Shown: positions 44,957 to 63,739 of the stretch, one piece after another
Numbering within the stretch: position 1 is the stretch's first letter
How the letters are laid out: every line of letters starts with the position of its first letter
Assembly (NCBI RefSeq): GCF_021155765.1
Contig: NC_060111.1
Location: 9,795,981 to 9,859,980 of the forward strand
Direction of reading: 5' to 3'
DNA from: Diprion similis
Taxonomy: Eukaryota > Arthropoda > Insecta > Hymenoptera > Diprionidae
DNA length: 64,000 nt
The notes under the pieces: generated by a model
What the model was told of the DNA's origin: nothing
The model's input: the letters and a program-made list of their open reading frames with translations, nothing else
Databases searched by the model: none
Made by a program: the position numbers and the translations under genes

Positions 44957-45244
44957 CTACATAAGCGAGGTTACGGCATTTTTGGAACTACCTGTCAAAC
45001 AAGATACTAAATTGTTGGTAGTTGAAGCATGCGATTGGTTACCTCCTTGTGTAGATGGAGTATGATTCACTCTGAGACCAACTGCTGACCAAAAAGTATT
45101 AGGTAGAGTGGAAGGTCCCATAAGGCGCCCATGTAAAATTTCGTAGCCAGTTTCGCAGCGCCTCTGGTGAGTTGGGTGACGAGTTATTGACTCCCCACTC
45201 TCCAATTTAGCAGTAGCGGTAGATTTAAATTCGAATATTGCAAT
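44957..45244 (-). CDS. Possible exon of unknown gene
   Basis: Open on the minus strand from a potential AG acceptor at about 45245 to a stop at 44957. It contains RRCETGYEILHGRLMGPSTL and a Ser/Thr/Asn-rich end. The composition looks like natural protein rather than random sequence. It lies downstream of, and on the same strand as, the THAP gene split by the Kolobok element, so it could be a later exon of that gene. No catalytic motif. Confidence 0.3.
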   Translation of the reverse strand: MAIFEFKSTATAKLESGESITRHPTHQRRCETGYEILHGRLMGPSTLPNTFWSAVGLRVNHTPSTQGGNQSHASTTNNLVSCLTGSSKNAVTSLM

Positions 45245-45673
45245 CTTGGATATTTATACAAGTGAAAAAATACAAACACAAATATAAAATCATAGTAATA
45301 CGTGTATTAATAATCACAGTTTATTTCGAAGCGTGAGTCCGTTTCAATATCTACACTATTTATACTATTTACTGTTTTGGTATTCACAATATTTACAGTA
45401 ATAACCTTTTCTTTTCGTTAACCTCTATTTATTATTATTTTTTCTTTGTTCGAAATTTTCTAATTTTTTCACCTCCTTTCTCAGCCTGGGCTGCAGTTTG
45501 TATTTTACTTTCTTCTTTTAATTCCGGCCGCAAGAACCTAGCTTCCCAATGACATCTGACTCGTATGAAAAGTATCATAAAAGCCATACTGCTTTCTGCG
45601 CTGCATAAATGTAAAGGAGTGCACGTCTCTATGAGTATTCGTTCCACCACTATGGTGATGTTAATTGTGTGCA

Positions 45674-45777
45674 TTATGCTTCGTATAATTGCCTTGTAAT
45701 GGTGTTCCCAAGCAAGTATGGTTTTAAATATATTTTCTGCAGTGTGAATGAGCCCATTGGTATCAAGGTGGGCTTAA
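45674..45777 (-). pseudogene. THAP gene, 3' part beyond the transposon insertion
   Basis: Starting in the TTAA at 45774-45777 and reading leftward on the minus strand, the frame continues the THAP exon at 62773-62956 without a shift. It begins PTLIPMGSFTLQK and ends at TAA 45674-45676. A further open stretch to 45435 in another frame includes LRKEVKKLE-like coiled-coil sequence, so more of the gene may continue through a frameshift or a splice. Confidence 0.55.
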
Positions 45778-45898
45778 GGGACAACACCACTATGACCCCC
45801 TGTTTTTTTGCCGTTTTTCATGAATTTAAAAAAATTTTTCACGCCCCATGGTCGCGCTGGGGAAGCTCCCGCGTCAGGTGCTGTTGCCTCTGCAGTGA

Positions 45899-46215
45899 TC
45901 CGCGGCACGCAGCAGAACTGTCTTCAAAGTCGATCTGAAGAAAAATAACGAGTGTTTTCGTTAATAATATGATATTTTGAAGAGAAGTACATAGGGATTT
46001 GAAAAAATATTGATTTTTAAAAAATAGACACGCTTTTGAAATTTAAGGTCGATTTTCGAGCAAAATTTCTCGTCGAAAAAAGGCTGTAATTTTTTTTTTT
46101 ATTGACATATCGAAAAAATCCTATGTACTTCTTTAGATAATCTAGTTTTATTGATGCAGTCCAAATTTGAAGTCGATCGGATAAAAATTGCTCGAGTTCT
46201 GCTGCGTGCCGCACT
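45899..46215. repeat. Subterminal inverted repeats of the Kolobok-like element
   Basis: GCGGCACGCAGCAGAACTG near 45900 pairs with AGTTCTGCTGCGTGCCGC ending near 46213. Inside, GAAGTACATAGGGATTT pairs with AAATCCTATGTACTTC. The two nested inverted pairs would make a cruciform next to the left terminus and may be transposase-binding or stabilising sequence. The right end has no obvious counterpart. Confidence 0.6.
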
Positions 46216-46296
46216 CAAAAAAGTGGTTTTGAGAAAAACGCGTTCAAAGTTTTAAGTTTGTTAATTTATGTGATAAATTGGAAATTTTTTTTTTAC

Positions 46297-47455
46297 CTAA
46301 TCAGCGATTCCGGCACCATACAGCTGGCCTTCAAGAAGCAAATCAAGGTCCCCAGCATCTTTTCTCGAACTTGTAGAGGCTCTTCTTGTCTCTTTTGCAG
46401 CATCCGTGAGCGAGCGCTCCGCCTGCTCGATCCGCGCTGCGTCGGTTTCAACGCTAAAATTGAAATAATTTGGGCCGATGGTTACCCCCAACGTCTCCAT
46501 AACTTTCATGAGGCTTCTCAGGCCATCGTTGAATAATAATACCGCGATATCAGCGGCAATATCGACGATTTTTTTGCTCCCGGACTGACACTTGGGGGCT
46601 ATTGCCCAAACTGATTTGTTGTAGCTTTCGTTATTGTTTTGCGTAAAGCCGCCCAAACAACGCTGCAGCAAATCGTCTCTGCTCAAATTTTCATACACTG
46701 GCGTAATTGCCTCCAATACTACCTTAGGAAGAGGCGGCTTATGGCGATATTCAGAAATATTACCGCTTGCGACCGCTCGCTGCCACGAACACCACGACTC
46801 GGCTCCCTTTGGGCAATCGTCATGTTGCGGCTCACTATCTGTGGATATTTTATGCTTGATAGTTGCCCAAATTTCCCTCCTCATTTTTTTAACATCATCG
46901 CTGTTCCTCCGAATAGCCAAGCCGTAATATGTGCTCAACTCGTCGATCAATTTTCCAGTGAGCTTTCCTCTGCCAGACAATCCTTTTTGTTTTTTCACGA
47001 TTTCATGGAGGCGCGTCCCAATACGTTTTTGGACATGAGCGATGCACTCTTTTTTTTTTATCTCGGAACCGTCGTATGGATCGCTATTCGATATGCCCAG
47101 AAACGTTTTAGAATCGCCGTCACCAATATAATATTTATATTTTATGCCATAGAGCTCTTCAGAACGTTGAAACATTTCGACAGCTGAGTCGACTTCCATT
47201 TTTCCGGAGGAGCCGCTATGGTTCGCCTAGCACACATCGTCGTGGGTACTTTTCCATTCCCAGTACTCTGCGGTGCTTTCTTTTGCTTCCCAATGCTGGC
47301 AAGCTTTGCAATATTTCGATTTCACCATAACGTCGATCACTTTTTTAGTGTACCAGCCGATAAGCGATGTTATGTCGAATAGCGAACTGAAACCGCGCTT
47401 TCGCCACGATCCGTCGCCTGAAACGATAATCCCATTTTCCAACGAAATTCTCTTC
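46297..47455 (-). pseudogene. Kolobok/Mutator-like transposase, C-terminal part
   Basis: Carries the catalytic part of the transposase: VSGDGSWRKRGFSSLF (first acidic residue), a Cys pair in YCKACQHWE, YIGDGDSKTF (second acidic motif), SWCSWQRA, and CLGGFTQNNNESYN (candidate third acidic residue). It ends at 46297. TAG at 47227-47229 is in frame, and similarity continues on both sides of it. The N-terminal part is 14.8 kb away at 62221-62543, on the other side of the Polinton, and the frame is continuous once the Polinton and one CTCTTC copy are removed. Confidence 0.85.
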
Positions 47456-48415
47456 AGTAGTAATACAAGGGGCATTCTGCGTATAGATTCCTGTTACCGA
47501 CACTTACCGACATTTTCTCCAGACTCAAACCCTTCTCCGCGATGACGTCACAGTCTACTGTACCGACCGTCGATCAAAATGGCGCTACCTATTTATCGAC
47601 CGAAGGTTCAACTTTACCGACAGTGTTATCAGCCGAGGCTCAAAATCTTGCTGCTTTACCGACTGTTTCATCGACCGAAGGTCTAAATCAAGCGGCTTTA
47701 CCATCGGTCTCGCTGTTATTCCCCCCTATCGACGGTCGAGGTGTAGCGGTAAATATAATAAAATAAAAGCGGTAATACAAGGGGCATTCTGCGTATAGAT
47801 TCCTGTTACCGGCACTTGCCGACATTTTCCCCACTCTCAAACCCTTCTCCGCGATGACGTCACAGTCTACTGTACCGACCGTCGATCAAAATGGCGCTAC
47901 CTATTCATCGACCGAAGGTTTAACCTTACCGACAGTGTTATCCGACTGTACCGACAGTGTTATCCGACAGTACCGACTGTTTCATCGACCGAAGATCTAA
48001 ATCAAGCGGCTTTACCATCGGTCTCGCTGTTATTCTCCCTATCGACGGTCGAGGTGTAGCGGAGACGCAAACCCTTCTGTTCCCAACGTACCCATCTCAT
48101 GAATGTTTCGGTTAACTTTGAGCGGCTTGCGGTGTGATATTTGAGACCCCACATTCCGCAATTAACAGTTCCGAGAATTGTTTTCGTTAACCCGATATCA
48201 ATTACGTGACATTCTTTTCTCGAAAACTGCTTGTGTGGTCGAAAGACCAGTATGATATCAGCCACGTAACATTCGACAATTAATAGTTCTGAGAATGGCT
48301 GAGGTGAACCACGTGACATTCCGTTCCCACGATATCGAACCACGTGTCATTCTTATAAAAATTCCAAAGTCTGAAGTGATTTTAACCATGTGACATTCTT
48401 TTCCCCTTCCCACCA
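47456..48415. repeat. Polinton left terminal inverted repeat, partly duplicated
   Basis: The outer ~300 bp of the terminal repeat occurs twice in tandem (47456-47752 and 47774-48060), separated by about 20 bp of A/T-rich filler. The inner part (48060-48415) is single and matches the right terminus. Features repeated in each outer copy: a TGACGTCA palindrome (near 47543 and 47856) and imperfect repeats of CATCGACCGAAGGT. The inner part holds five copies of a GATATCAACCACGTGACATT-like motif, at about 48194, 48254, 48303, 48331 and 48375. Confidence 0.85.
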
Positions 48416-48494
48416 AATTTCAAAACGCAAGTGGGAGAGCAGTGTTATAAAAGTTGGAACCGCAAAGGTCAGCGTCAGTTTGAGGCTGTTCTTC

Positions 48495-48677
48495 ATGAAA
48501 AGTACTCCGCATCAACAACAACGTGAATTCAAGAAGCGTCGACAACTTTTATTCAAGAATATCGAAAAAGTAAAACAACTTCTAAAAATCAGATCCGAAC
48601 TGTATCAACTCACAAGAAGATTTGAGGAAATACGACTCAACAGTAACCATCATCATGGACTTCACAAAATTAAATGA
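48495..48677 (+). CDS. Small basic Polinton protein
   Basis: 60 residues starting MKSTPHQQQREFKKRRQLL; Lys/Arg-rich and probably helical throughout. A TATAAAAG box at about 48446 lies some 45 nt upstream of the ATG. The end overlaps the start region of the next gene. No known domain; a nucleic-acid-binding role is conceivable from charge only. Confidence 0.5.
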   Translation: MKSTPHQQQREFKKRRQLLFKNIEKVKQLLKIRSELYQLTRRFEEIRLNSNHHHGLHKIK

Positions 48678-48901
48678 AACGCTTGGAGACTTTCTTGCCA
48701 TTGAAAAAGCTGGCAGACCTTGACGAATACTACGAGTACAGAGTAAGCAGTGTTCGTCGAGTAAAAACGAAGTTCGGCGACAAAGTGGTTGCAGACTTGG
48801 AGGATTCCTTTACCATTTTTCTTCCAAATCGGTTGAATAAAGCCCTCCAAGAAGACGAAGAGCTGTTCCAGAAGGTGACCACAGCCAGTAAGGATGCATG
48901 A
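48655..48901 (+). pseudogene. Small OB-fold-like protein of Polinton, frameshifted
   Basis: An N-terminal piece from the ATG at 48655 (MDFTKLNETLGDFL) and a C-terminal piece in a second frame (LADLDEYYEYRVSSVRRVKT, then FGDKVVADLEDSFTIFLPNR) meet near 48700-48720, indicating a one-base frameshift. An alternative ATG at 48674 keeps only the second frame (75 residues). The pattern of a short beta-rich protein with TKFG...FLP.R resembles small ssDNA-binding-type proteins carried by insect Polintons; the function is inferred. AATAAA signals follow near 49020-49027. Confidence 0.55.
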
Positions 48902-49231
48902 TTGCGCATACGCTACCTTGGTGGACCGTATGGCCAACTTGAATTTATTTATGTATGATCTACACATCACGTATATCCACTACCTTGTAAAAGTCATGCG
49001 TTCAATAGAAAAAAAAATAATAAATAAATGAAATTATTATGCGTTTATCATTTAGCGTAAAACCTTCCTCCTCCTGATAATGATATTAGTATGGGAGAAA
49101 TTATACTCTCAACAGCGAAAGGTGAGGTATCAAATTAATGCCTAAATATTCTAAAAAAAGTTTTATTGAAATTACTTTATAACGTTAGTACAATAATTTT
49201 ATTCAACAGTATCATAACCAGGATGATATTT
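48902..49231. other. Convergent 3' ends, no gene
   Basis: Spacer between the plus-strand small genes and the minus-strand capsid cluster. It contains plus-strand AATAAATAAA near 49020 and minus-strand AATAAA-type signals (TTTTATT near 49161 and 49197), as expected for two convergent transcripts. Confidence 0.6.
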
Positions 49232-49795
49232 TCACCAGGAATGCGGGATCGTTCTTGTAGATGCTTCTGCGCAGTAGCACAAATCGCTCACCGCCGCCAT
49301 CCGTACAACATGGTGATTCAGTAACCAATTTTGGAGTACCATGACGTTTCGAGCTGCACAGTTAGCGTTGGGTATTGTGTGCTCGTCACATCGTACATGT
49401 ACAGCCGAAGTTTTTTGAATGGTTTGAAGCGATGGACAGCTCAAGTCCAGCAAATCGATGAGTTGAACTTTGGGGACAATTTTGAGCAGCCAATCTTGTT
49501 TTTCTTCTTCCTTCACGTACACCCTGCGAGCTTTGCTCAGCTCGTCTTCAATTGTCCATTCCACTTTCTGGAACGGTACATTTCCACAGCTACAAGGTAG
49601 ACCGTGAAAATTGCGTTGCAACCATGAATTTTGGCTTTTATATTTGACGTGTGGACAGTCCCATTCGTAAGGTGGCTTGAAGAGATACGTCGATGGAGGT
49701 GCTCCCGAGTAGATTGAAATTACAGCCAATTCTTTCAACGTAAAGGTGTTGTCGCAAGGTCTACGGAAGCCTTGTATGTCAACGATGAGCTCCAT
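49232..49795 (-). CDS. Conserved Polinton protein of unknown function
   Basis: 187 residues, intact. Begins MELIVDIQGFRRPCDNTFTL and contains KELAVISIYSG, SWLQRNFHGLPCSCG and a Cys/His-rich C-terminal half (VRCDEHTIPNANCAARNV). The opening D.QGF pattern is reminiscent of an RNase H or exonuclease-like fold, but this is only an impression. I recall similar proteins among insect uncharacterised genes, which could be Polinton relics. A TATAAAA box lies about 36 nt upstream (49831-49837, minus). Last gene of the minus-strand capsid cluster. Confidence 0.7.
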   Translation of the reverse strand: MELIVDIQGFRRPCDNTFTLKELAVISIYSGAPPSTYLFKPPYEWDCPHVKYKSQNSWLQRNFHGLPCSCGNVPFQKVEWTIEDELSKARRVYVKEEEKQDWLLKIVPKVQLIDLLDLSCPSLQTIQKTSAVHVRCDEHTIPNANCAARNVMVLQNWLLNHHVVRMAAVSDLCYCAEASTRTIPHSW

Positions 49796-49832
49796 GTTTT
49801 TACTGTGAGAGGTGGTGGGAATTGGTCAGCTT

Positions 49833-51050
49833 TTATATCAACTTTTTCACCCCACCACTGAGTGAGTTGTATTCAACGATTCGATCGTGAACAATCAAGC
49901 AGTACGCCGATGTTTCAGCGGGAAAGTTGGCCTTAGCTTCAAATTCAAGGCGGATGTCAACGGGTCCGTACTTCAAGGATTTGTTTTGTTTTGAACAGTC
50001 AATAACGAATAAGGGAGCCTTCTGAAGAAATTCACTCCTTGTTAGCAACGGCTCGGGGTTCTTGTCGTAGTAGGTAGTTTGGAAGTTTGCGTACATCTCG
50101 TACAAGAGTGCGTACAGATTACGACTCATGTTTAGGTTCAGGTTACCGTACGGATAAGATTGTGAGTTTAAAAACAGCTTGACGTCCGTGACATTGCAGT
50201 GATCGAAATGACTTGCGTTCTTGCCGATCTTGTTCTTTCGACTTGTTTGGAAAGCCAAAATTACATATCGAGGTTTTTCAAGCTGAGTGGAAGTTTTCAC
50301 AGTCCAAACGTGTTTCGATGTAGTGGGAAGTAAAGGATATTCGTACCATTCCCAACTGCAGAAGCTCATCGAAATAGGCGGGTCTTTCTCAACGAAATTC
50401 AGCAGGTCAACTTTTTTCTAATCCGCAAGTTTCAAATACGGTACGAGCCATTCCACTGTATTGATCACGATTTTGTATTCCTCCTCTTGACTCTGCACAA
50501 TCGCGTTTACATCAGTTTTGGATCTCGTTAAAATCAACTCGTGTTTGGCATTGACAACGATCTTGCGGTAGTCTTCAGTGAAACCCAGTATCGTGCTGAG
50601 CGGTATCAATACGTCAAAATTACCCTCGGCATCGGTTAATTTTTTCTTCTCTTCCACGTCAAGTCATCCTGCGTTCTCCATCAGCCAACTCTGACCAGGG
50701 TTCAGAGAAGCGTAACCCTTCATTAGACTTGTCAAGCCAACATTCTTGCTTCTGTCGATCTCAACCGCATTAATTTCGTAGCGAATTTCTTCAAATAAAT
50801 GACAGATGGCGTGGTTTACGAGCTGCGTGTTCACAGTCGCTGTTCCAACAGCTTTTAAGAGTCGTCCGTGGATATGGACCGAACTTTTGCCGGATAATAT
50901 GCATGAATCCTGATGCTGAACGGTGATTCGAATTTCATCGCTGTTGTTGAAAGTTGACGAGGCGTAAGGTTTGTGAGCGTGAATTTCGTAATGCGCAATG
51001 GATTCGTCGAAGATGACCGGTGTTTGAATGTTTAAGATTTCTTCTTTCAT
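49833..51050 (-). pseudogene. MCP: Major capsid protein (double jelly-roll), two in-frame stops
   Basis: Builds the icosahedral shell in Polinton-type viruses. Three consecutive stretches lie in one frame: 50664-51050 (FDESIAHYEIHAHKPY, DEIRITVQHQD, EEIRYEINAVEIDRSKNVG), 50421-50657 (FDVLIPLSTILGFTEDYRKI), and 49833-50417 (EYPLLPTTSKHVWTVKTSTQ, FDHCNVTDVKLFLNSQSYPY, CLIVHDRIVEYNSLSG). TGA at 50664-50666 and TAG at 50418-50420 break it. Total about 405 codons from the ATG at 51050; the frame is open upstream to 51113, so a start there is possible. The motifs are those of the insect Polinton MCP family. Neighbours are the minor capsid gene upstream and the 187-residue protein downstream. Confidence 0.88.
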
Positions 51051-51264
51051 GGTACGTAGCAGACGATAAAACAGCAAAATCGGATTCTTATTTGCCGGAA
51101 TTTCCTCTTCCAAAAGGTGTCAGTTTCAAGCCCAGAGATATCAGGAACTCTACGTTCCGAGGTGTTGACGGTTCGTGAATCGATCGATGACTGACTTGAT
51201 CGGGACATGACGACTTACTGATATACATACTCTTTGGCTGTCTGTTATAAACGATACCCATCGT

Positions 51265-51950
51265 TTATTGCGATTTGATGTGTAGTCTCACAGTTATAAC
51301 TTCACCACAAAAATTAACCAAGTCTCCGTATTGATCTACTAACCGAAGCTGAACGTGATCTATGGTCCTGACGGTGATCGGAAAGTAAATGACGTGCGAC
51401 GGCACTTCCACGATCTTATATCCTTGTGGGACGGTTGGAAAAAATTCGTCAATAGTGTGTACTTTACGTCCGTTGATGTAGGCACCCGTGGTAATGCTGC
51501 ACTCAACTCGCAACGCGTTGACCTTGAGTATAGTTACAGGCATGTCTGATTCGTGAGCTCTATCAGCTTCCAATACACGAGGTGTGAATCCCAAAAGTTG
51601 AGCAATGGAATCGTCCGGTTCTAAGTTTAGAATGTGGTTGCATGTGATTTCGCTGCGTAATGTGTTATTGTTGGGCTTAATGTTGAGTCTGATGTTTGTA
51701 TTTCTTAGCACGTTTTGGGATACTTCTCTATGCCTTCAATCTCGTAGCTGCCGGTAGGTATGGTGATCACTCTATCAGCCACGTAAATTTTATTGTGACC
51801 AACATCAACGTTGGGGATCGAATTAAAGGTCAAAAATTCTACCAAGCCAAGAGCATAACTTTTATCACGAGCAAGTTCAATCGGTTGGATATATTGCGCT
51901 TCAAGAATCGAAGAGGTTCCCGAAATTGTTGACGTTAGTGAATCATCCAT
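51265..51950 (-). pseudogene. Minor capsid (penton-like) protein, frameshifted
   Basis: Vertex protein, expected single jelly-roll. N-terminal part 51705-51950 (ALGLVEFLTFNSIPNVDVGH, then IPTGSYEIEGIEKYP) and C-terminal part 51265-51711 (IKPNNNTLRSEITCNHILNL, GAYINGRKVHTIDEFFP, VPQGYKIVEVP) overlap in different frames around 51705-51711, so a single indel splits the gene. Together about 228 codons, usual for the family. A TATATAAG box at 51993-52000 (minus) lies about 43-50 nt upstream of the ATG. Confidence 0.85.
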
Positions 51951-51980
51951 GGTTGCGAGTGATAGACTGGCTGTGTTGAA

Positions 51981-52337
51981 TTATGCACCATACTTATATA
52001 GCTCACCGCTCAAAAATTTCAAGCACAAATGTCCGCATTCAAACGTATCATAATCCTGCTACCTTTCATGATTGTATTTAACGCTACCAACACCGAGATA
52101 TTTTATGAGGTCCGAGGGTGGTTGAAGGTTACCGAAACTGTCAAAGTAATCGATGTTACTGTCACGTTTCTTGTACGCAACCCAATGTGTTCCCGGACCG
52201 TCTTTTTCGTCGAGGTTGACTGTAGCTGACTTGTTTTTTCGTGGACCATTTTTGGGCATTTCCTTTCGCATGAGAACACCGCGGAAATAGGGAATCTTGA
52301 AGATTTTTGCATATTTCAACAAGTCCCAATCGGTCAA
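51981..52337 (-). pseudogene. PRO: Adenain-like cysteine protease, one in-frame stop
   Basis: Ulp1/adenain-type protease presumed to mature capsid proteins. Seen: GPGTHWVAYKK with the catalytic His, then IDYFDSFGNLQPP with the Asp of the triad. After TAG 52059-52061, still in frame, comes CGHLCLKFLSG with the nucleophile Cys. Ends at TAA 51981-51983. About 118 codons, which matches compact Polinton proteases. The gap to the upstream PLA2-domain gene is only 23 bp. Confidence 0.88.
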
Positions 52338-52360
52338 CGCTCGACGTGGTAGCTTTGCAT

Positions 52361-53152
52361 CTAGTTTTTTGGAAGATGGAGACCAAGACCAGTTCTGTAC
52401 GGTTTCAAATGCAAACCTTTGCCCAACGCCATAGCTTCCATAGTTTTTTTCTGTCGTTTGCTCTCTTCCAGTTTTCGTTTAGCAGCGCTCGCATCGTTCA
52501 CAGCTTTTGCTATACCTGCCGCACCGCCAGCCAACGCGCCTGTGGCACTCAGTCCAGCGAAAATGGGGATTAGAAACGGTAGAAATCCACCAACCTTCGA
52601 AGGTACTGGTAGAATGCGCGGTGTTCGCACTTTACATTTACCACCCGCTTTTTCAACAGCGTTTTCAGCCCCCTTGAGCGCAGACTCAATGGCTACTTTT
52701 GCATCGTTGCTTGGAACCATGGAGCGTTTGGCGGCATTTATAATTTTTCTCAAGGTCGCGTCCTTTTTAGGTTTTTGAATTCCCATCCCAAGTTTTGATT
52801 TCACTTTCATTGTATTGGCCACCGCCCAAGCCGCTGCTTTCTCGCTTAAATTGGCGTCCGGTGCGAAAACCCGTTTCCACGCTTTTTCAGCCAACACCCT
52901 ATCAGCCGCGTTCCTGACTTCAAGATTTTCACGATTCTGCGAGTAAGCAATGTCGTGGTTCTTGCAAGCTGCGTCGAGAGGATTGATTCGCGGATCACCT
53001 CGCGCGAGTCTCTTTGTCAACTTTGTACCAGGTCCACAGTATTGATAACCAGGTACGTGCAATTCGACTGGAAGACTGTTGATGATTTTATTCACCAGAC
53101 CTTTGCCGTGATGTTGCCGTTTGCTGCTTTGTTTACCTTTGTGCACGATCAT
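52361..53152 (-). CDS. Phospholipase A2-domain virion protein with hydrophobic segment
   Basis: 263 residues, intact. Residues ~35-70 carry a parvovirus-type PLA2 region: YCGPGTKL (calcium loop) and KNHDIAYSQ (His-Asp catalytic pair). Residues ~195-225 form a Gly/Ala-rich hydrophobic stretch (FLPFLIPIFAGLSATGALAG) followed by a basic tail, like small membrane-active core proteins of adenovirus-like particles. Such PLA2 domains are known in adintovirus and Polinton-like genomes, where they are thought to help particles leave endosomes. A TATAAATA box at 53191-53198 (minus) lies about 40 nt upstream. First gene of the minus-strand capsid cluster, divergent from the ATPase. Confidence 0.85.
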   Translation of the reverse strand: MIVHKGKQSSKRQHHGKGLVNKIINSLPVELHVPGYQYCGPGTKLTKRLARGDPRINPLDAACKNHDIAYSQNRENLEVRNAADRVLAEKAWKRVFAPDANLSEKAAAWAVANTMKVKSKLGMGIQKPKKDATLRKIINAAKRSMVPSNDAKVAIESALKGAENAVEKAGGKCKVRTPRILPVPSKVGGFLPFLIPIFAGLSATGALAGGAAGIAKAVNDASAAKRKLEESKRQKKTMEAMALGKGLHLKPYRTGLGLHLPKN

Positions 53153-53215
53153 CTTCAGGCTTTGACTGACGGGAAAGGTTTAAAACCGGGGTATTTATAG
53201 CAAATCTGGTCAGTC
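53153..53215. promoter_or_regulatory. Divergent promoter between PLA2-domain gene and ATPase
   Basis: Only 63 bp separate the two ATGs. On the minus strand GCTATAAATACC (53190-53201) is a good TATA box for the PLA2-domain gene. TTTAAAACC near 53180 may serve the plus-strand ATPase. Promoter activity is inferred from spacing and motif only. Confidence 0.5.
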
Positions 53216-53926
53216 ATGTCCAAGATGCGGTTTGAGGTACAACCTACTAAGCTTCCCGTGATAAATTTCGACAAACTTTCAGAGCAAAATGTGAAAAGAC
53301 AAAAACGGCATGGGGAATTACTTCCGAACAGTGTGCGTGCAATATTCTGCGGACCGTCGAATTGTGGTAAAACTAATGCGTTGCTCACACTTATAACCCA
53401 TCCCAATGGACTTAGATTTGAAAATATCTATATCTACTCAAAATCCCTTAACCAACCGAAGTACCAATTGTCGAAGCAATTGTTGGACAACGTTGAGAAT
53501 ATAAAGTATTTTCCTTATACCGAGCGTCAGCAAGTAATTACACCGGACGAAGCACGACCCAACTCGATAATCGTTTTTGATGATGTAGCGTGCGAGAAGC
53601 AGGACAATCTCAGAGCCTACTTCTGCATGGGCAGGCATGACGATGTTGATTGTTTCTATCTCTGTCAGACGTACGCATGTATTCCCAAACATCTCGTGCG
53701 CGACAATGTAAACTTACTCGTGTTATTTAAACAAGACGATATGAACCTGAGACATGTGTACAACGACCATGTGAACACCGATATGTCTTACACACAGTTT
53801 AAAGATGTGTGCTCCGCATGCTGGAACGGTGATAAGTACGGGTTTCTTGTGATCGACAAAGATAGCGAGCCCAACCAAGGACGTTATAGGAAGGGATTCG
53901 ATTCTTTCATTAGCCTGGAAAAGTAA
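53216..53926 (+). CDS. ATPase: FtsK/HerA-type DNA-packaging ATPase
   Basis: 236 residues, intact. Pumps DNA into capsids in related viruses. Walker A is IFCGPSNCGKT (residues ~43-53) and Walker B is SIIVFDDVAC (~118-127). DVDCFYLCQTYACIPKHLVR follows, then YGFLVIDKD near the end. Length and motif order match Polinton A32-like ATPases. Start at the ATG at 53216; a second in-frame ATG is at codon 4. Confidence 0.93.
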   Translation: MSKMRFEVQPTKLPVINFDKLSEQNVKRQKRHGELLPNSVRAIFCGPSNCGKTNALLTLITHPNGLRFENIYIYSKSLNQPKYQLSKQLLDNVENIKYFPYTERQQVITPDEARPNSIIVFDDVACEKQDNLRAYFCMGRHDDVDCFYLCQTYACIPKHLVRDNVNLLVLFKQDDMNLRHVYNDHVNTDMSYTQFKDVCSACWNGDKYGFLVIDKDSEPNQGRYRKGFDSFISLEK

Positions 53927-53987
53927 TAAAAATCTTGCGTTTCCAAGCAAGGAGACACAGTAGCGTTGCAGACTCAGTTGCGTCAAC

Positions 53988-54887
53988 ATGCAGAGCTCCA
54001 AAATTCCCGAGCAAAAAGAAGTCCTACATCAGATCGCTCAAGCGAGTGCTGCAATCCGTCGAAAACACAGATTACTCAAGTCGGGCAAGGAATCCACGGC
54101 TCGGAAATTGAGTGACGTTTTCAAACCGGTAGTGACTCCGTTGCGAGAACTGGTGAATGTTACAAAAGAGACGAAACCTGTGTAACAAGAAGTGGAAGAA
54201 ATCAAACAAGAAATAAAGGAGATGAAAAATGAAACTAACAATGAAACAGTCTCGGAAATGGATGATTCCTTTGCTTCGGCAGGCGATGAAACAATCGTAG
54301 AAACATCTGTTGATGAAACCGAGAATGAGTATTTTGAAATGATGAGAGATGAGACGAGAAAAAGTGAATTGGACAACGTGTACGGTGTACGCAACCTCTC
54401 AACCGGACTAATGATTGGTGATTCGTTAATGAGTTTTGAGAGTGACCAGATCCGTATTAGGAATACGCTTTACCCAAAAACGAAGGGGTTACTGGAGCTT
54501 TTGTTCAAAAAGAAGCCGGACAGGTCCTATGTGAGTGACGGAGATCGGGAGAATTATAGAAACATAATCCTTAAAACGAACGCACATAAAAAGTATTACT
54601 CATCTCACGGAGCTGTTCGAAGCGATAACAGTTACAAATTGAAAAATGTCATTGCCGAATTGTTGGATTATTCACCATCGCCTCAGCGAAAGGGTAAAGG
54701 TCTATTTCCGCAAGCTATGATTACACGACAAGGTGTTCAAACGGAATACGTTTTCTGGGATGATCCAAACGAGTTAGTGGAGCATCTTCGTCTACTCCTA
54801 GCATCCCAGGCGGCGGGAAATCCGAGTCACAACTACGAAATAATGTCCATTATCGAAGAACTGCGCGAAGCAGAAATCATTTATTAA
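53988..54887 (+). pseudogene. Conserved Polinton protein, one in-frame stop
   Basis: The N-terminal 65 codons (53988-54185) start MQSSKIPEQKEVLHQ and end at TAA 54183-54185. The same frame continues through an acidic region (Glu/Asp/Met-rich) to a conserved C-terminal domain: LDNVYGVRNLSTGLMIGDSL, LYPKTKGLLELLFKKKPDR, ILKTNAHKKYY, and a Lys/Gly-rich SPSPQRKGKGL. About 300 codons in total. The C-terminal domain looks like one I know from uncharacterised insect proteins (possibly the family catalogued as DUF8207). Function unknown; its place beside the ATPase is typical of Polintons. Confidence 0.7.
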
Positions 54888-54920
54888 GCAGCTCCTATCG
54901 CTTGTGCATTCATTTCCAAG

Positions 54921-55208
54921 ATGGGCGTCGATGTGTTCGGACGGCACCTGGATAAAAACACAGCTGCGGGTAATCGCGGCCCTCCTGGTGTCGGATTTCA
55001 AATCACTGCGGACGGACATTACGATCTACAGAATAAAAGACTGTGCAATATCGCAGAACCTATTGAGCATAACAATGCTGTAACTTTGAAAATCTTACGA
55101 CGAAAATTCAACGTGCTGCAAAAACAAATCGACAATCTCGATCAAATGATCAAAGCATTGGAGATTACCACGGGAAAAGCTTTGGATACCTTCTACGCAG
55201 ATTTTTAA
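54921..55208 (+). CDS. Small Polinton protein, possible structural/fibre-like
   Basis: 95 residues beginning MGVDVFGRHLDKN, with RGPPGVGFQITADGHYDLQN then NAVTLKILRRKF and a coiled-coil-like end (LQKQIDNLDQMIKALE). The GPPG-FxLTxDGxYDxxNKRL pattern recurs in small Polinton proteins. After the stop at 55206-55208 another frame continues with IRNAEIISKLDTRLRALEYE, so the original protein may have been longer and was truncated by a frameshift. Confidence 0.6.
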   Translation: MGVDVFGRHLDKNTAAGNRGPPGVGFQITADGHYDLQNKRLCNIAEPIEHNNAVTLKILRRKFNVLQKQIDNLDQMIKALEITTGKALDTFYADF

Positions 55209-55929
55209 ACAGGCAGAGACCTGTTGATTCGAAACGCTGAAATCATTTCCAAATTGGACACCAGACTAAGAGCATTGGAATATGAACGAGAAAAAGCTAA
55301 CGCTGGTGACGGAACTGCATAAGCCTGCAAGCCGGAATTACCCGCGTCGCCGTGTAGACGTGCGCGGCATCGACGAGACCTGACCGGCGGATCTTGTTGA
55401 TATGATGTCATACGCAGGACAAAACAAAGACTACAAGTATATGCTCACAGTCATTGATATCTTTTAAAGTATGCGTGGGCTGTACCGATAAGGAGCAAGT
55501 CCGGGGATGATGTTACAAAGGCCATGAAATCCGTGCTAACTCAAGGACGTGTACCGAAAAAATTACACGTGGATAGAGGAACGGAATTCTACAACTCAAA
55601 ATTTGAATCTCTTATGCCACGCTATGGAATCACACTCTACTCCACGTACATTAATTTGAAGGCTTCGATCTGTGAACGGTTTAATCGTACGCTGAAAAGT
55701 AAAATGTGGAAACGGTTCAGTATGCAAGGAAGCTACAAGTGGCTCGACATCTTATCTGATTTAGTATCGGCTTACAACAACATGAAACACCGAACCATAA
55801 GAATGAAACCATCGGATATCACCGTTGCGAGCGAAAGGCTGGTATTACGTCAGTCGTACGGAGGGCTTCGAGCGAAACCTTCCAAACCGGTAAAGTTCAA
55901 AACCGGTGACAAAGTTCGAATCAGTAAGT

Positions 55930-57280
55930 TGTTATGGGCTGGGTTGGTTGATGACCAAACCACTCCCAAAAATATAACGCTTGGCTCGGACTAGTTCTCC
56001 CGGATGGTGAATTATTTGAATTTTGATGTCGTTCTCCCTCTTGGTTGAACCGACTTTGATAATAAAATGGTCACTTACCTTTTGCTGGTGACCGTTGATT
56101 CGGGCTATGTGGGCGGCTCTGCGTGTTCGGCCGGTGGTGAGATTGGTTAAAGTTACTGATCGCTTAATTTATATTAGGCGTTAAAGGTAATAATTGTTCA
56201 ACTCGCGATGTAAGTTTAACACACGAATCTTTGTTTATTCAATTAAGGTTTAAAGAAAATTCTTATAATGATTTTAATTATAAAAGATGGAAGGTTTAAA
56301 AGTATAGTCACGGAATTCCCTTTTAGCGCTTTAGTTTGTTAAATTAAATAAAATAAAAGACCTTTTGAATTTCTAACAGATTCTCTGGTCTGATTGATCT
56401 GCCTAAAACTGAGAGAACGATTTCTGTTGAAGACTGTCTGACAACTATGTAACGACTGCTTGACGAAAAAAAATGTAACGACTGCTTGACGAAACAAAAT
56501 GTAACAACTGTGTGACGAAACAAAATGTAACAACTGTTTGACGAAACGGTAAGAACTGCTTGACGTCTATCCCACAACTAACTGACGACTATCTCACAAC
56601 TATGTCACGACTGACTGACGACTATCCCACAACTATGTCACGACTGACTGACGACTATCCCACAACTGACTGTTCAGAAAACTGAGAATTGAGAATTGAG
56701 AGAAACTACTTCCTGATTGGTTCCCAGCATCTTTGAGAGAGCTGCCCAATAAGGAAGTATTGATAAGATTTTGAGTTTCCCATTCGCCATTAACTACCCC
56801 CGCCCTTTGGGTACGGTGTAACATGCAAAACTATCTTAACTAATCCCGCCTCTTCCATGAGTGCGGGTGGGAATTGCCGTGCTTGTTTTGGTCCATGATA
56901 AAAAATATTCTACTGTATGTTCGGAATGACCCTGTCCAAACAGACACTCCAAAGATGGATATATGGATTTTAATCCGTTGCACGTGCGTGCCAGATTCTG
57001 CATACCTGGAAATATCGAGAAGCGATTTCCGGTCATCTGGTTACTCGTAGAGAGTTTGTATATTCTAGTCTGTTTAGGTAAGGATTATCCCGTAACATTA
57101 TTTAATGAGTAAGATTATTATAAGCTGGGGATGGTTATTTCCTAGAGCCGTAAAAAATGATAAAGAAAGCCGTATGCATACAATGCATACGGAGACTCAA
57201 AAATATAAGATGTAAATAAATTTAATCGAAAACTGAAATAAAACTAATGAGTAGGGGCAGAGGGCATCGAGGATGTGACA
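55930..57280 (+). mobile_element. Solo LTR (1,351 bp), TSD AAGT, inside integrase gene
   Basis: Starts TGTTATGGGCTGGGTTGG and ends CATCGAGGATGTGACA, flanked by AAGT (55926-55929 and 57281-57284). Removal with one AAGT rejoins the integrase frame exactly. It contains a tandem-repeat block (about 56440-56670). No retroelement coding sequence remains, so it is a recombination-derived solo LTR. Its sequence is unlike the other two LTR-like insertions in the window. The plus strand is nominal. Confidence 0.9.
56440..56670. repeat. Tandem repeats within the solo LTR
   Basis: Two unit types: GTAACGACTGCTTGACGAAA-like units of about 30 bp, then CTGACTGACGACTATCCCAC-like units of about 35 bp. Such arrays in LTR U3 regions often act as enhancers, but no function is shown here. 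Confidence 0.75.
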
Positions 57281-57567
57281 AAGTACAAAAACGTCTTTGA
57301 GAAAGGTTACACTCCCAATTGGACGACTGAAATATTCACAATAAGCCAAGTAGAAAATACCAATCCTGTGACGTACAAGCTCAAAGACTACCAAGGTCAA
57401 CCCATCGCTGGTGGTTTCTACGAACAGGAGCTCCTCAAGGTTGAGCATTCGGACATCTATCTCGTGGAGAAGGTGCTCCAGAAGCGGGGAAAAAAATTAT
57501 ACGTCAAGTGGCTAGGTTTTGATAATACACAAAACAGTTGGATAAATGAATCTGATATGTAATATTG

Positions 57568-57605
57568 AATAAACGAAATTATTTTTCAAGTATTTGTCTT
57601 TATTT
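57568..57605. terminator. Convergent polyadenylation signals of integrase and polymerase
   Basis: AATAAA (57568-57573, plus) lies just after the integrase stop. AATAAA on the minus strand (57599-57604) lies about 40 bp past the polymerase stop. The two transcripts would overlap by a few dozen bases at most. Confidence 0.6.
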
Positions 57606-57642
57606 TTACATTTGAGAGATACAATTCATACCGATGTTCAGT

Positions 57643-60600
57643 TCAACTGCAGGTCTTGTAGCCCCACGGCAGCGTATCGGTTGTCTTCCGAAATACGATA
57701 CGCTTATCGTCGTTCCAGCTCAGTGCTACTTTTTTCTGTTCAATGGTATAGACCTGATGCTTCTGACTTTGTATCAGACTCTGACGTTCGACTAAATTTT
57801 CGTGTTCTAAGGCACACTTCAAGTAATCATTGAAGCTTATTATTTTTAACAGGGATCCTTTGACACCCTTGGCTCGTTTTTCATCCTTATCCTCCCCTAT
57901 CACTCTGAATGAGTACAACTTCGCTCTCAAGCCAATAAATTCCGCCATTATTTTTCCGTTACACTCATCTTTCATCAAACCCAGAACTTTTTTGTTAACC
58001 AACGGCATTTCGTAGACGTTGTCAGGTGGATAATCGGAGGTATCGAATTTATCCAAGTCCTGTTTGATGCATTCGTAAATGTTGGGCCCGGTGAAGTGAC
58101 ATATCAAACTATCCGAGTCAGTGTACATTAATTTTGCCTGATGCCCAAATTTCGTTTTAATATACTTGTAGTGAAAATCGTAGATGAAGGTCTTCGCAAG
58201 ATCTAAAATGGAGAAGCCTGCATACAATGGTTTGTTGAGTTTGACTGTCGTTCTACGCAATTCAACTATTATCATATCTTTATCAAAGATAGTACAACTG
58301 TGGAAATTTGGTTTGGGTATAGTAGCTCTAGCACCATATCTTCCATCCCATTTCGTGATAAGCCTGACATCTCTATACTTCCCAACATTTTCCATTGTCT
58401 CACCGAAAACTGCGTTGTTCATCAGTTTATAGAAGTTTTTTTCGAATTCATTGTTTGATTTTCTGCGTAAGTCTGTATTTAAATCTATGTACTTTTTGAG
58501 CTACGGTGTTTGTCTGAACTTTAAAACTCTATAAATTTTAGCTAGTTTTAAACCTAATTCTAAGCATTGTTTCAAGACGCGGTAATGAACAACGTAGTTT
58601 TGCTTGGAAAGGAGCGTGGTCGTCAATTTCGGTTGCTTACTTTCTGAGATGGGAGGTATGTAGTGTTCTGGACACAGTGGTAAATCTTTATGCATTTCAT
58701 GCAATTCCTCTGGATATTCCAAATCTACCTCTAATATGTAGCCAAACTCCGCCTCGTCTGTGATGGCAAAAACATCGAATTGTCTGAAATCTAATATCCA
58801 TTCGAAAGAACTGCATGGCAGAGCAAAGGTCACAGCCGCGCCGTACAAGTTGTTAACGTCGAAATACATGAGATAAGACTCTTCGAGCGCTGGATGGAAA
58901 GCATCTCCCATGTATCTATTATTAGCCTTTGCACATCGATTAGAGCATTGGGACACACCACCTCGAATACCTTTTTCTATAAACATAAGCATATCTATGT
59001 CAGTGAGAAGCTCGAGTTCGATACCGGTACAATTCAACATTGCGTCAAACAAAAGACCGGGCGCCGTGTAATCATGTAAAGGGTCCAGGTTGTACGTTTC
59101 ATAACAATTTTGTCGAAAGTTTTTAAAAATGTCAGCCAACAGAAAAACATCAGTTTGCAAATATAAGTCTGAATATTCCCCCAAAGTTTTGAGGTTAAAA
59201 GCTTGCCAAACTTGACACGCGTGTGCGTAATCGTTATCCGAAATATCTTGGTTGTTTAATTTTGAATAAAATCTTTCTTTAGGTGGTAACTTTACGTCCT
59301 CGAGCTTCTCCCAACCATCCATGTACTCATACGGAAAAACACCTTTCCTGGTTAATAACTCGAATTTTTCAGAGCTTGTGCAAAATTTACGTGTAATTGA
59401 TTTTTGATTATCATTCAAATATGTTGCCAATTTTTCGAGACTGCTGGGCATAAAACGGAACGAATCTAGAAATCTAAACTTTATATCTGTCACCTTGACA
59501 TATTTTGTAAATGAAATGTACTTTTCTTTGTTCACGGGTAGAAGCTGAATAGTACCCTGAACAGTTGTGGCCAATGCTTTAGTCGAACAATGCGAATCGT
59601 AACCCGACAGGTTGTGGAATATCACTGGGATAGTATGCGAGTTTTGATAATTGAGATTGCAGCTTTGATGCGCAGGACCACGGTACTTTCCTGCGAAATG
59701 ACAGTGATCACGGTGTTTCACGTCTTCGCGCGTGAACGGCTTTTCACAAATATGACATACCTTTGATAAATTAAATTCGTTAATTTGATTGAAGTTCAGC
59801 GACTCCATAGGTACAATAGTTTTGAAATACGTTTCCAACGAGTGTGCCAATTTCTCCAACTCGTTCACAAACCATTCGATGCAAGTCTCCCCGCGGTTAA
59901 TTTTGAACTTTGAAATGGAATTGTTAAAGGTGCAATGCAGGTAATACGCTATACTGTAAGGAATATGATTTTGGTAAATTGTTATATTTTCTGACACTTG
60001 AATGTTAGTAGCTTGCAACAAGCATTCTAGATCCGCGTAAATACAGAACGGAACGGTTTCTTTGTGCTTAAAATTTTTGAATTTCAGAATCTTTTCCTCT
60101 TCCTCCGGTAAAACAACTCTGGTCTCGTTTAAACTCATGCAATAAACTCTATGGTTTGCCAAACATCTTTCAGATTGGAAGTGCATCAGACATCTATCAC
60201 ACAACCAGATACGAGGATGGTGCTTAGAAATTTGAGAAATTGTAAACCGTGATAAATTGCGAATCCAAGCAAAATGAAAGATTCTATTTTTTTCACAATA
60301 TTCCGTATCAATATCATCGTCATCGTCTGTAATTTCGGTTTCCACTGCCAAGAGACGAATTACGGGTTTATCAGACTTATTCTGACTCAAGTGAATCGGT
60401 ACTATTTCACTTTTTTTCCCACCATCTTGGTCTATACGATCAACATTGATGGAAAGTCCGTTGAGTTTTTCAAATTTCGAAATAGTATTTTTATCTAGAG
60501 ACATAGGAAAGTTTATACTGTCATACCGTAGCACTGAGCTGAAATGTGGATACGAGCTGGTTATGTTGGGATTTCTGTTGTTGGCTGGGTACAGAGCTGC

Positions 60601-61350
60601 AGTGACCGACCAAAGGAAGCAATACGAGTCGTTGTTTGAGACGTTCACCACAGCCTTCTTATCTCTGATGTGCTTCGGTAACGGGGTATAGGTATACAGA
60701 CCACCTCTAAGTGGCATATAATTGTTAATGTTGACGGCAAGATTGATAATTTCTTAATCTTCCACCTTTGTTAACAAACGGTTTGTTACATTTTCGATGA
60801 ACCATTCGTTAATATCCGTTGTCTGGAGGATGATTTCATTTTTCGTATTAAAGAATTTGTTCTCTTCTACTGCGTGATCATCCTTATTTACTTCGAATTT
60901 ACAAGCCAGGATGGCGTTTACTTTTAGGCTTCCCGTTTTCCGCAGAGCGTTTTTCAGTTTTGTCATAGCAAGTAACTTTGCGTCTTCTAGAAACCTCTCC
61001 ACGTCTTTATGCTTCAAATTGGTGATGGATCCTGTTCGTATTCTTCCCTCGAAAGCAGACTCCAATTTCTCCCAGTGTACGCGATCGCTTCGTCTTCGTT
61101 TCCGCGTACCGTCACCCGTTCTCCGAAGCCGTTTGAATTTTTCCGCCAGCGACTTCAAGAGTCCGATCGTTGTGATAATTTTCGTTTTCTCGCCCATAGA
61201 TAAAGCCTTTTGCAGAATTTTGTTTATAAGCCGGATATTTTGCGTCCCAAATTTAATCCATTCCTGAATCTCCGTTGGTGATGATTTGATCAACATTTTG
61301 TACGCAGATTTCATAATGTTGATCAATTTCAAACATTTTGCGGATTCCAT
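57643..61350 (-). pseudogene. PolB: Protein-primed family B DNA polymerase, two in-frame stops
   Basis: Replicates the element DNA. About 1,235 codons from the ATG at 61350. Seen in order: N-terminal domain (WEKLESAFEGRIRTGSITNL, TDINEWFIENV); SYCFLWSVTAALYP; a C2H2-like finger (CDRCLMHFQSERCLANH); exonuclease motif I (YADLECLL); an endonuclease VII-like zinc insert (CHICEKPF, then HRDHCHFAGKYRGPAHQSCN); Exo II (NLSGYDSH); Exo III (YLQTDVFLLADIF); polymerase motif A (YFDVNNLYGAAV), motif B ([14 protein letters not shown]) and motif C ([12 protein letters not shown]). All catalytic residues are present. TAA at 60754-60756 and TAG at 58501-58503 break an otherwise open frame. A TATAAAAAGG box lies about 68-75 nt upstream (near 61418, minus). 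Confidence 0.93.
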
Positions 61351-61554
61351 CTTTCTTACTTCTCACGTGCTCTTGACAAGTTTAAACATGAATGATCGTT
61401 TGCTGTGATGGTAATCCTTTTTATAGAGCGAGCTATACGTGTGTCTATTACGCGTGGTGTCGTGTCATTCGGTGAACATGGGAGCCACCATACGATATCA
61501 TATTTCTTCGTTTGCAAAACATAAACACAAGGGTTCGTTACATTAGAGTCCTGG

Positions 61555-62220
61555 AGAGGTATTTGGTGGGGAGAAAGAACGTCACGTGGTTGATATCACT
61601 TCGGATTTGGAATTTTTGATAAGAATGTCACGCGGTTGATAACGCACCGAACCTTGGACTCGAACAGAACATCACGTGGTTCACCCCAGCCCTTCTCGGA
61701 ACTATTAATTGTCGAATGTTACGTGGTTGATATGATACTGGTCTTTCGACCACACAAGCAGTTTTCGAGAAAAGAATGTCACGTAATTGATATCGGGTTA
61801 ACGAAAACAATTCTCGGAACTGTTAATTGCGGAATGTAGGGTGTCAAATATCACACCGCAAGCCGTTCAAAGTTAACCGAAACATTCCTGAGATGGGTAC
61901 GTTGGGAACAGAAGAGCTTGCGTCTCCGCTACACCTCGACCGTCGGATAGGGGGGAATAACAGCGAGACCGATGGTAAAGCCGCTTGATTTTGACCTTCG
62001 GTCGATGAAACAGTCGGTAAAGCAGCAAGATTTTGACCCTCGGCTGATAACACTGTCGGTAAGGTTGAACCTTCGGTCAATAAATAGGTAGCGCCGTTTT
62101 GATTGACGGTCGGCACAGTAGACTGTGACGTCATCGCGGAGAAGGGTTTGAGTCTGGGGAAAATGGCGCTAAGTGTCGGTAACAGGAATCTATACGCAGA
62201 ATGCCCCTTGTATTACTACT
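61555..62220. repeat. Polinton right terminal inverted repeat
   Basis: About 665 bp, reverse complement of the left terminus from its second outer copy inward. It has a single outer unit, one TGACGTCA (near 62127), and five copies of the motif seen in the left repeat (minus strand CCACGTGAYRTTCT-like, at about 61580, 61630, 61672, 61715 and 61775). A small open frame (61844-62134, minus) starts at the same ATG as in the left repeat. Confidence 0.85.
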
Positions 62221-62543
62221 CTCTTCTCTTCAAGGGTAGCCTTTTGTTTGCTTACTGCGCTCACAGCTTGAGTGGCAATAGAAATCGAATTTACGATTCG
62301 ATCGTAGAAAGATTGAAATATGGGGCGCGGTAGGTCCATAAATGCACAAAACTTCATCAGGCCATTTAAACCGACGCCAAGAAGACGCATACTGAATACG
62401 ATCCGACGATTTATTTCGTATGCATTGTCAATCATAGGACACGAATTGATTTGCACTTTTTTACAATGGCCGCAATCAACCTCGATTTTGAATCCGAGTC
62501 CGCGCAAACTTTTTTCAGTAAACTTTATATCGCGAACACACAC
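62221..62543 (-). pseudogene. Kolobok/Mutator-like transposase, N-terminal part
   Basis: Open on the minus strand, with CGHCKKVQINSCPMIDNAYE (Cys/His zinc cluster) and MRLLGVGLNGLMKFCAFMDL, which precede the catalytic domain in this transposase family. It runs straight into the Polinton target site. An AG acceptor near 62560 could begin this exon; no start codon upstream was identified, so the 5' end of the gene is undefined. Confidence 0.8.
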
Positions 62544-62772
62544 AAAGGCCCGGTATACCTGCCGACCGGTTCAGACGCGCACCTGGCTGAGGCGGCGCGG
62601 GACCCCGACCGTCACGGAGCGCTGCACCGCTCCACAAAATATTTAATATCTCCGAAAATAATTATTTTTTCGACCTGAGACCAACGGCATTCTATTCCTA
62701 GATGTATTTTAGATTTTTCTAGATAGTTTTCAAAAAATCGATATTTTGAAGCCGTCACAGTGGTGTTGTCCC

Positions 62773-63116
62773 TTAATAGCGGGAACGCTGCTTCCAGTCA
62801 GTAAACAGGGTGGATACCGTTTGCATATAAACTTAGGATCAAAGTGATCTATGCAAATACGAAACTCTGATCCAGCTTTTTCAACACCAGCGAATGATAG
62901 CCATTTTGCACGTCCGTAATGAACACAAAAGAGATTACTGAGACAGTACATACTGCTGTATTGCGAAACAAAGCGCGATCAAGTGAACTGGACTAGATTA
63001 TGTTATTCGTCGTTGAATACTTACATTTTCGGATCTCGCGGAATAAGAAAATATGTGTGACGTGGGTGCATACGTGAGCTTTTCTTGCAGCCCTGTATCC
63101 CACATTCATGTACCAT
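62773..63116 (-). pseudogene. THAP-domain gene, 5' part (exons 1-2), interrupted by transposon
   Basis: THAP domains are C2CH zinc-dependent DNA-binding modules. Exon 1 is 63025-63116: MVHECGIQGCKKSSRMHPRH then TYFLIPRDPK, with the first Cys pair, then a GTAAGT donor. Exon 2 starts at 62956 and reads KWLSFAGVEKAG then FRICIDHFDPKFI (Cys-His pair), then LLTGSSVPAI (the AVP-like end of a THAP domain). The splice is in phase. Exon 2 is cut at the TTAA 62773-62776 and resumes at 45777. This may be a host gene or a THAP-type transposase gene; too little remains to tell. Confidence 0.7.
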
Positions 63117-63739
63117 TTTAGTTAGAGTTTTTTTAACCCGTTTTAATCGCTTTTTATGCAGCACACTGTAATCACCAAAGTTCGCACCTAATCTTCACCA
63201 CACACGTTAGTCGAATGGACGCAATGGACGCGCTTCACCCCTTTCCTTCACCCAGCAACTACGGGTGTTGTGACACCCAACTCGCCAGATGACGCTCACG
63301 GCGGCGGCTACGCGAACCTTTCACTCTACCTAATCCTCTTTGCTGCTGACAACCCGGTCGGATGATGAAAAAACATGAGTCGAGCAACTTTCTACGTAAT
63401 TTTTACTTCAAGAAAAAGTTCATGTCACGGGTCAAATATAGCGAGATGGACAACCGCATTTATCACTGATTTTATATTGATATACTGTAACGACCAGCTG
63501 GTCAGCACGCTCACGCTGGCAGCTGAGCAGCATGCATAAGGAGTTGCTACGAAGGCACTTGATTGTGAGTAAGACTGACGGTTTACGAATGCACTAGCGA
63601 GAGAGAGCATCGAGGGGGACCGAGACAGACGACTCGACCGCGACGACGACGAACGGTCAACCTTACCCGTGGACCGACGGCGGCGACGCCACTCTTGACC
63701 GGTCCGATTTCGTACAAATGGAGGTGTCTCGCTGGCACT
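63117..63739. other. THAP gene 5' flank, no gene recognised
   Basis: GC- and CpG-richer than the surrounding DNA around 63200-63360 and 63590-63700, compatible with a promoter region for the minus-strand THAP gene. TGTAACGACCAGCTGG at 63486 could start another LTR, but its other end is outside the window. A minus-strand frame at 63425-63778 is Arg/Ser-rich with no known match. Confidence 0.35.

Follow-up and report, generated by a model that had tools for sequence, protein, structure and literature searches.

Four mobile elements nested in one another, with all insertion scars intact, at a Diprion similis locus

Nested elements and their insertion junctions

The DNA examined here is a 64,000-nucleotide stretch of the genome of Diprion similis, the introduced pine sawfly (contig NC_060111.1, positions 9,795,981 to 9,859,980 of the forward strand), hereafter the window. 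It holds a short two-exon coding region for a THAP domain, into which is set a Kolobok-type transposon, which contains a Polinton that is in turn interrupted by a solo long terminal repeat (LTR). Four mobile elements are nested in one another at this locus, with all insertion scars intact, and the block spanning 45082-63350 (18.3 kb) is the product of four insertions. Target duplications, read from the letters, are exact at each level (8, 4, 6, and 4 bp, from outermost to innermost). The TTAA duplicates abut the inverted GGGACAACACCAC ends of the Kolobok-type element, the CTCTTC duplicates abut inverted AGTAGTAATACAAGG within the long inverted repeats of the Polinton, and the AAGT duplicates abut an LTR that starts with TGTTATGG and ends with GATGTGACA (end letters GTGACA). 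A first-pass annotation had reported these last three duplications as exact, which the letters confirm, and had described a four-level nest with a THAP gene outermost. The Kolobok-type element, the Polinton, and the solo LTR are nested as it stated; the outer THAP unit has inverted ends and an 8-bp duplication of its own and is therefore itself a transposon, which brings the insertions to four.

Copies and empty sites were searched for in the same genome (269-Mb assembly, 60 contigs), a check that the first-pass annotation had proposed and that bore it out at all three inner junctions. For the TTAA site, 11 of 12 non-window matches to the left flank (45500-45777) reach the right-flank match from 62777 within 1 base and so lack the Kolobok-type insert; the twelfth (C1:15249870) is without a right-flank match. 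In all four near-full-length Kolobok-type relatives 47455 is joined to 62220/62221, and the overlap is the one expected of a 6-bp duplication; the remaining relatives are deletion derivatives or diverged and are uninformative on this site. For the AAGT site, scoring of 40 of 151 candidates gave 39 non-window Polinton matches, nine of which were fetched: seven join 55930 to 57281 exactly, L063 is without the LTR and also without ~23 bp beside the site, and L066 is rearranged there. Chance matching, considered as an explanation, was ruled out by these empty-site copies.

Two of the interrupted reading frames were followed across the inserts. As had been claimed, the frame of THAP exon 2 passes through one TTAA and runs on to a stop at 45674-45676. 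Matches to PF20700 lie on both sides of the Polinton, and a tblastn search with Neodiprion lecontei protein P0001 placed residues 1-61 to the right of it and residues 56-444 to the left. The two transposase halves therefore adjoin in one protein, to whose adjoining parts they are 91.5% and 90.2% identical. This agrees with the earlier placement of the Polinton within the transposase, although a stop codon in frame and a gap of 4 residues occur in the window copy. Based on DNA contiguity in relatives, with the two flanks compared apart, the integrase frame of the Polinton would likewise continue across the LTR. Coordinates of all features are collected in Table 1.

Table 1. Features of the nested block, in window coordinates
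Feature	Position	Strand	Basis
8-bp target duplication CTGCTGAC of outer element, left copy	45082-45089	.	letters identical to 63343-63350
Level 1, outer element, left part: gene 3' side, including the end of THAP exon 2	45090-45777	-	homology to copies
TTAA target duplication, left	45774-45777	.	letters read
Level 2, Kolobok-type element, left part: transposase C-terminal part, from DGSW to NNNE; the Polinton target duplication makes up its last 6 bases	45778-47455	-	PF20700, 118.6 bits
CTCTTC target duplication, left	47450-47455	.	letters read
Level 3, Polinton with long terminal inverted repeats, interrupted by LTR	47456-62220	.	
Double jelly-roll capsid piece	49833-50417	-	PF21738, E 1.9e-73
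Double jelly-roll capsid, second piece	50664-51119		PF21738, E 1.5e-12
A32-type packaging ATPase	53201-53926	+	PF04665, 30.2 bits (cut-off 22.8)
Integrase piece left of LTR, partial rve	55458-55929	+	PF00665, 25.5 bits (below cut-off 32.6)
AAGT target duplication, left	55926-55929	.	letters read
Level 4, solo LTR, TG...CA, 1351 bp	55930-57280	-	sense inferred from primer-binding-site-like and purine-tract-like stretches beside LTRs of relatives
AAGT target duplication, right	57281-57284	.	letters read
Integrase piece right of LTR, chromodomain-like end	57281-57562	+	PF00385, 21.5 bits (below cut-off 25.1); stop read
DNA polymerase B gene, three open pieces (57643-58500, 58501-60753, 60754-61362)	57643-61362	-	
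CTCTTC target duplication, right	62221-62226	.	letters read
Level 2, right part: N-terminal transposase portion plus the right inverted end	62227-62772	-	PF20700
TTAA target duplication, right	62773-62776	.	letters read
Level 1, right part: THAP exon 1 (starting at 63116), the intron, the bulk of exon 2, and the right inverted end	62777-63342	-	
8-bp target duplication CTGCTGAC of outer element, right copy	63343-63350	.	letters read

The outer THAP-bearing element

Once the insert is removed, the outer unit measures 1254 bp. What had been annotated as a THAP gene proved to be a dispersed repeat, with about a dozen other matches on six contigs. Homology among the copies runs from ~45090 to 63342 and stops sharply in most of them (left stop at 45085-45092), at inverted repeats of 40 nt that are 78% complementary and whose commonest form is CAAAGAGGATTAGGTAGAGTG. 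A pattern search for these ends, allowing one mismatch, returned 24 ends against 0 for a reversed-pattern control, which can be read as 9 facing pairs 0.8-1.25 kb apart plus 6 unpaired ends. Beside the nine other copies for which both flanks were examined, four exact 8-bp duplications were seen, three that match at 7 of 8 positions, and two unmatched pairs of flanks.

The THAP domain is spread over two exons (PF05485, 34.3 bits against a cut-off of 23.9, using a hand-spliced peptide). Among 14 aligned rows, the splice donor GTAAG and the acceptor CAG are each kept in 13, the exceptions being L005 and the window copy, respectively. The window copy has CGG before exon 2, in place of the CAG of the other 13 copies, and for this reason appears to be no longer functional as a spliced gene; gaps that break the frame occur in several of the others.

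With its THAP domain, 8-bp duplication, and inverted ends, the outer unit is probably a non-autonomous P-type transposon, although assignment to the P superfamily stays that of a candidate. The catalytic transposase of P-type elements is absent from the coding content of the 1.25-kb unit. The P-element transposase family (PF12017) is matched at no fewer than 41 places in the genome, several of them in long open frames. It is very unlikely that the unit is a duplicated or retroposed host gene. The recognisable THAP exon pair and the well-kept splice sites are what such a gene would have; the sharp ends at inverted repeats, the 8-bp duplications that are exact or nearly so in seven of nine other copies, and the presence of copies inside other repeats, including a Polinton (L007/L017), are not. 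Retroposition is further opposed by the donor and acceptor regions, both of which are present in the 14 aligned rows, so that the unit was not retroposed. A host THAP gene was rejected as a candidate on the 8-bp duplications, the inverted ends, and the copy number. For THAP-bearing open frames in sawfly DNA generally, inverted ends and target duplications should be checked before a host gene is called.

The DNA just outside the nest (44100-45089 and 63343-64000) is an old dispersed repeat, ~69-90% identical to many places in the genome. The P-type copy L007/L017, which sits within a different Polinton copy, is at C3:16458343-16461618. Elsewhere in the window, at 1669-2447, lies a repeat of ~780 bp that matches itself in both orientations, forming a long palindrome; at other loci this repeat is interrupted by a P-type element (L013), stands beside one (L015), or lies within a Kolobok-type relative (L033/L056).

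The inner elements and the order of insertion

The transposase of the second level shows the motif order DGSW, GDGDS, CIDH (CIAH in the window), and NNNE, and a catalytic role for the individual acidic residues, including the Asp of DGSW, may be inferred from these motifs. Relative to its relatives, the window copy is missing ~500 bp of the 5' coding end, between 62543 and 62552. It has TTAA on both sides, GG...CC termini, and a C/DxxH motif between the second D and the last E; on these features the element is classed as Kolobok-type, the matched family PF20700 itself being named Mutator-like. Close relatives (L052-L057) have perfect ends, yet TTAA is frequently absent from one side or from both, as if flanks had been lost or the copies had moved by another route. 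The transposase is ~92% identical to the Neodiprion protein (P0001 against window 46300-47454), which seems high for two sawfly genera and could reflect recent spread or horizontal transfer.

Polintons carry capsid genes, and the third level combines a double jelly-roll capsid with polymerase B, an integrase, a packaging ATPase, long terminal inverted repeats, and a 6-bp duplication. A phospholipase A2-like piece is also present. The middle piece of the polymerase gene matches PF02945 (24.2 bits), and its homologues carry PF03175 or PF02945; no Pfam match was obtained for the two outer pieces. For the left integrase piece, the open frame scanned was 55458-55991, which extends into the LTR. The left terminal inverted repeat (47456-48062) contains a tandem duplication of ~312 bp that is missing from the right one.

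For the innermost level, 40 of 105 candidates were scored, and at least 23 matches besides the window cover all 1351 positions of the LTR. Four LTR pairs, separated by 10-17 kb, are flanked by 4-bp duplications and differ at 0, 2, 2, and 7 bases (0-0.55%). A single LTR with a 4-bp duplication was found at five other loci, and L037 has a single LTR without a duplication. Primer-binding-site-like and purine-tract-like stretches beside L038 and L041, as interpreted here, place the LTR sense on the minus strand of the window.

The following course of events best accounts for the block. A transposon of ~1.25 kb, probably P-type, with only a two-exon THAP coding region, entered older diverged repeat DNA with an 8-bp duplication, and a Kolobok-type cut-and-paste element entered a TTAA in the 3' part of THAP exon 2. 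A Polinton entered the Kolobok-type transposase gene ~15 residues before the Asp of DGSW (Neodiprion protein numbering) with a 6-bp duplication. The integrase gene of the Polinton was hit in turn, with a duplication of 4 bp, by an LTR retroelement that would have been of Gypsy type and have carried a glycoprotein gene. A later recombination event joining the LTRs of this element would have reduced it to the single LTR. As a whole, this four-insertion explanation (P-type, then Kolobok-type, Polinton, and Gypsy-type LTR element) is very probably correct.

Each container is older than its content, from the P-type element through the Kolobok-type element and the Polinton to the LTR element, and the solo LTR is last. 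To this extent the strict relative chronology of the first-pass annotation stands; the sequence allows the Polinton to have entered either ahead of the landing of the Kolobok-type element in the P-type copy or following it, and in that part the chronology was overstated. The earlier observation is right and conservative, and its interpretation needs an extra level and a softer chronology.

Divergence from fetched copies is 5.1-8.0% for level 1 (8 copies) and 2.9-3.8% for level 2 (4 copies). For the Polinton flanks it is about 3.7-7.1% in 16 of 17 comparisons, with one L060 flank at 15% (gaps counted), and the 15 LTRs compared lie 0.76% to 8.19% from the window copy. The closest fetched copy is 5.1% away for level 1, 2.9% for the left piece of level 2, 3.7% for one flank of level 3 (counting gaps), and 0.76% for level 4 (10 differences in 1314 sites), a pattern in line with older outer and younger inner layers. 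Ordering of all four layers by divergence was tried and is uninformative for the middle ones.

A different history, in which a Kolobok-type element already carrying the Polinton (perhaps with the LTR) jumped into the P-type copy as a unit of ~17 kb with its ends mobilised in trans, is improbable. Both Kolobok-type ends and both TTAA copies are intact around the whole unit, and levels 1 and 2 are equal in private divergence, as such a jump would allow. The Polinton is found in none of the four near-full-length relatives, however, no second composite was seen, and in size the unit would be roughly sixfold the ~2.8 kb that relatives measure.

Several points weigh against four successive insertions as set out above. 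Divergence gives no order for the two middle layers, the LTR copies span a wide range, and changes private to the window copy are equal in level 1 (2.42%, 8 relatives) and level 2 (2.47-2.55%, 4 relatives). TTAA stands beside 6 of the 10 located ends of Kolobok-type relatives; where both ends were located (four relatives), it is on both sides only in L057, on one side in two, and on neither in one. In the outer family, six ends are unpaired at one mismatch, the window's included. No partner coding for P transposase with the same ends was found among the end pairs or in the 6 of at least 41 PF12017 loci that were read, none of which has ends or DNA similar to the outer element. For the outer 8-bp duplication, whose flanks are themselves diverged repeats, the search brought up no empty site in one contiguous piece. 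Finally, the junction evidence is drawn from assembled sequence and all layers are multicopy, which would suit a joining of unrelated repeat copies by the assembler. Such an artefact is scarcely credible: four exact duplications precisely at element ends are unexpected from a misjoin, and three of the four junctions read as a single insertion into a known relative.

The solo LTR family and comparison with known elements

The loci of the LTR family that bear on its parent are L041:305-1534, L073 (C4:10762500-10765000), and the LTR loci L038-L050. An internal 2.5-kb piece of one relative contains RVT_1, RT_RNaseH, and RT_RNaseH_2, followed by a macro domain (31.3 bits, cut-off 22). On the reverse transcriptase and RNase H of this one copy the parent is classed as Ty3/Gypsy, and relatives of the pol piece carry a Gypsy-type domain set; the macro domain is not among the precomputed domains of the 120 relatives listed of 7857, most of which align over about half the piece. 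No Pfam match was obtained for the gag-side piece. Two open pieces adjacent to the 3' LTR of L041 gave matches to PF24664, Monjiviricetes_fusion (E 3.3e-71 and 1.1e-23). Across the corresponding 1500 bp, L042, L048, and L050 have 98.9-99.7% identity to L041, whereas the part shared by L040 is limited to 673 bp. In these copies the parent of the solo LTR appears as a Gypsy-type element of young age, whose macro domain follows RNase H and whose Monjiviricetes-type fusion glycoprotein lies beside the 3' LTR. The donor of the glycoprotein may have been chuvirus-like. We suggest tentatively, as a reading somewhat short of an even chance, that the LTR was left by an enveloped Gypsy-type lineage, very recently active in D. 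similis, with a captured Monjiviricetes-type (probably chuvirus-like) glycoprotein and a pol macro domain, independent of the mosquito Pao-type capture. If true, the parent would be a Gypsy-type glycoprotein capture inside intact LTR boundaries, and this could matter more than the nest.

The nest itself records four insertions cleanly and in a form open to checking, with same-genome empty sites for three of them. Nested elements are ordinary in repeat-rich insect DNA; nesting is common, one example being a 600-kb region of a fly genome with 11 nested among 322 repeats (PMC3630058). No literature on the transposable elements of D. similis was found. The window copies are damaged members of repeated families, with damage in the THAP, transposase, and polymerase genes, and nothing seen suggests that the nest functions. 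It is a further instance of an already known kind, and knowledge of nested insertion is unchanged by it.

P elements, as described in two reports, have an 8-bp duplication, terminal inverted repeats, and an N-terminal THAP domain, and include short non-autonomous copies; the derivative KP codes for a 207-aa repressor (PMC7776569, PMC1562414), and P-type miniature inverted-repeat transposable elements (P-MITEs) are known in An. gambiae (PMC1562414). The outer element resembles P elements and their internally deleted derivatives in its 8-bp duplication, inverted ends, and THAP coding region. It differs in coding for the THAP part only, in ~1.25 kb, and the searches above gave no autonomous partner that shares its ends.

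Kolobok elements are characterized by TTAA, 5'-RR and YY-3' termini, and a DDD/E transposase with C/DxxH between the second D and the last E (PMC9587614). The window copy shares TTAA, GG...CC ends, and ordered DDD/E motifs with CxxH, but has an in-frame stop and is without ~500 bp of the 5' coding end. For Polinton/Maverick elements a 6-bp duplication is given in another source (PMC10045372). The third level is alike in this duplication and in its long inverted repeats, polymerase B, integrase, A32-type ATPase, and double jelly-roll capsid; it differs as a decayed, LTR-split copy whose left inverted repeat is partly duplicated.

In Hymenoptera, many Gypsy fragments stand beside glycoproteins of the type seen here, and the source reports no clear evidence of their capture by Gypsy; it also describes Anakin, a mosquito Pao-type LTR retroelement with a chuvirus-like glycoprotein (PMC10084718). 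The Diprion family is like Anakin-like elements in having a Monjiviricetes-type fusion glycoprotein beside the 3' LTR, whereas it differs from Anakin in its Gypsy-type pol with a macro domain, its glycoprotein lying within the LTR boundaries.

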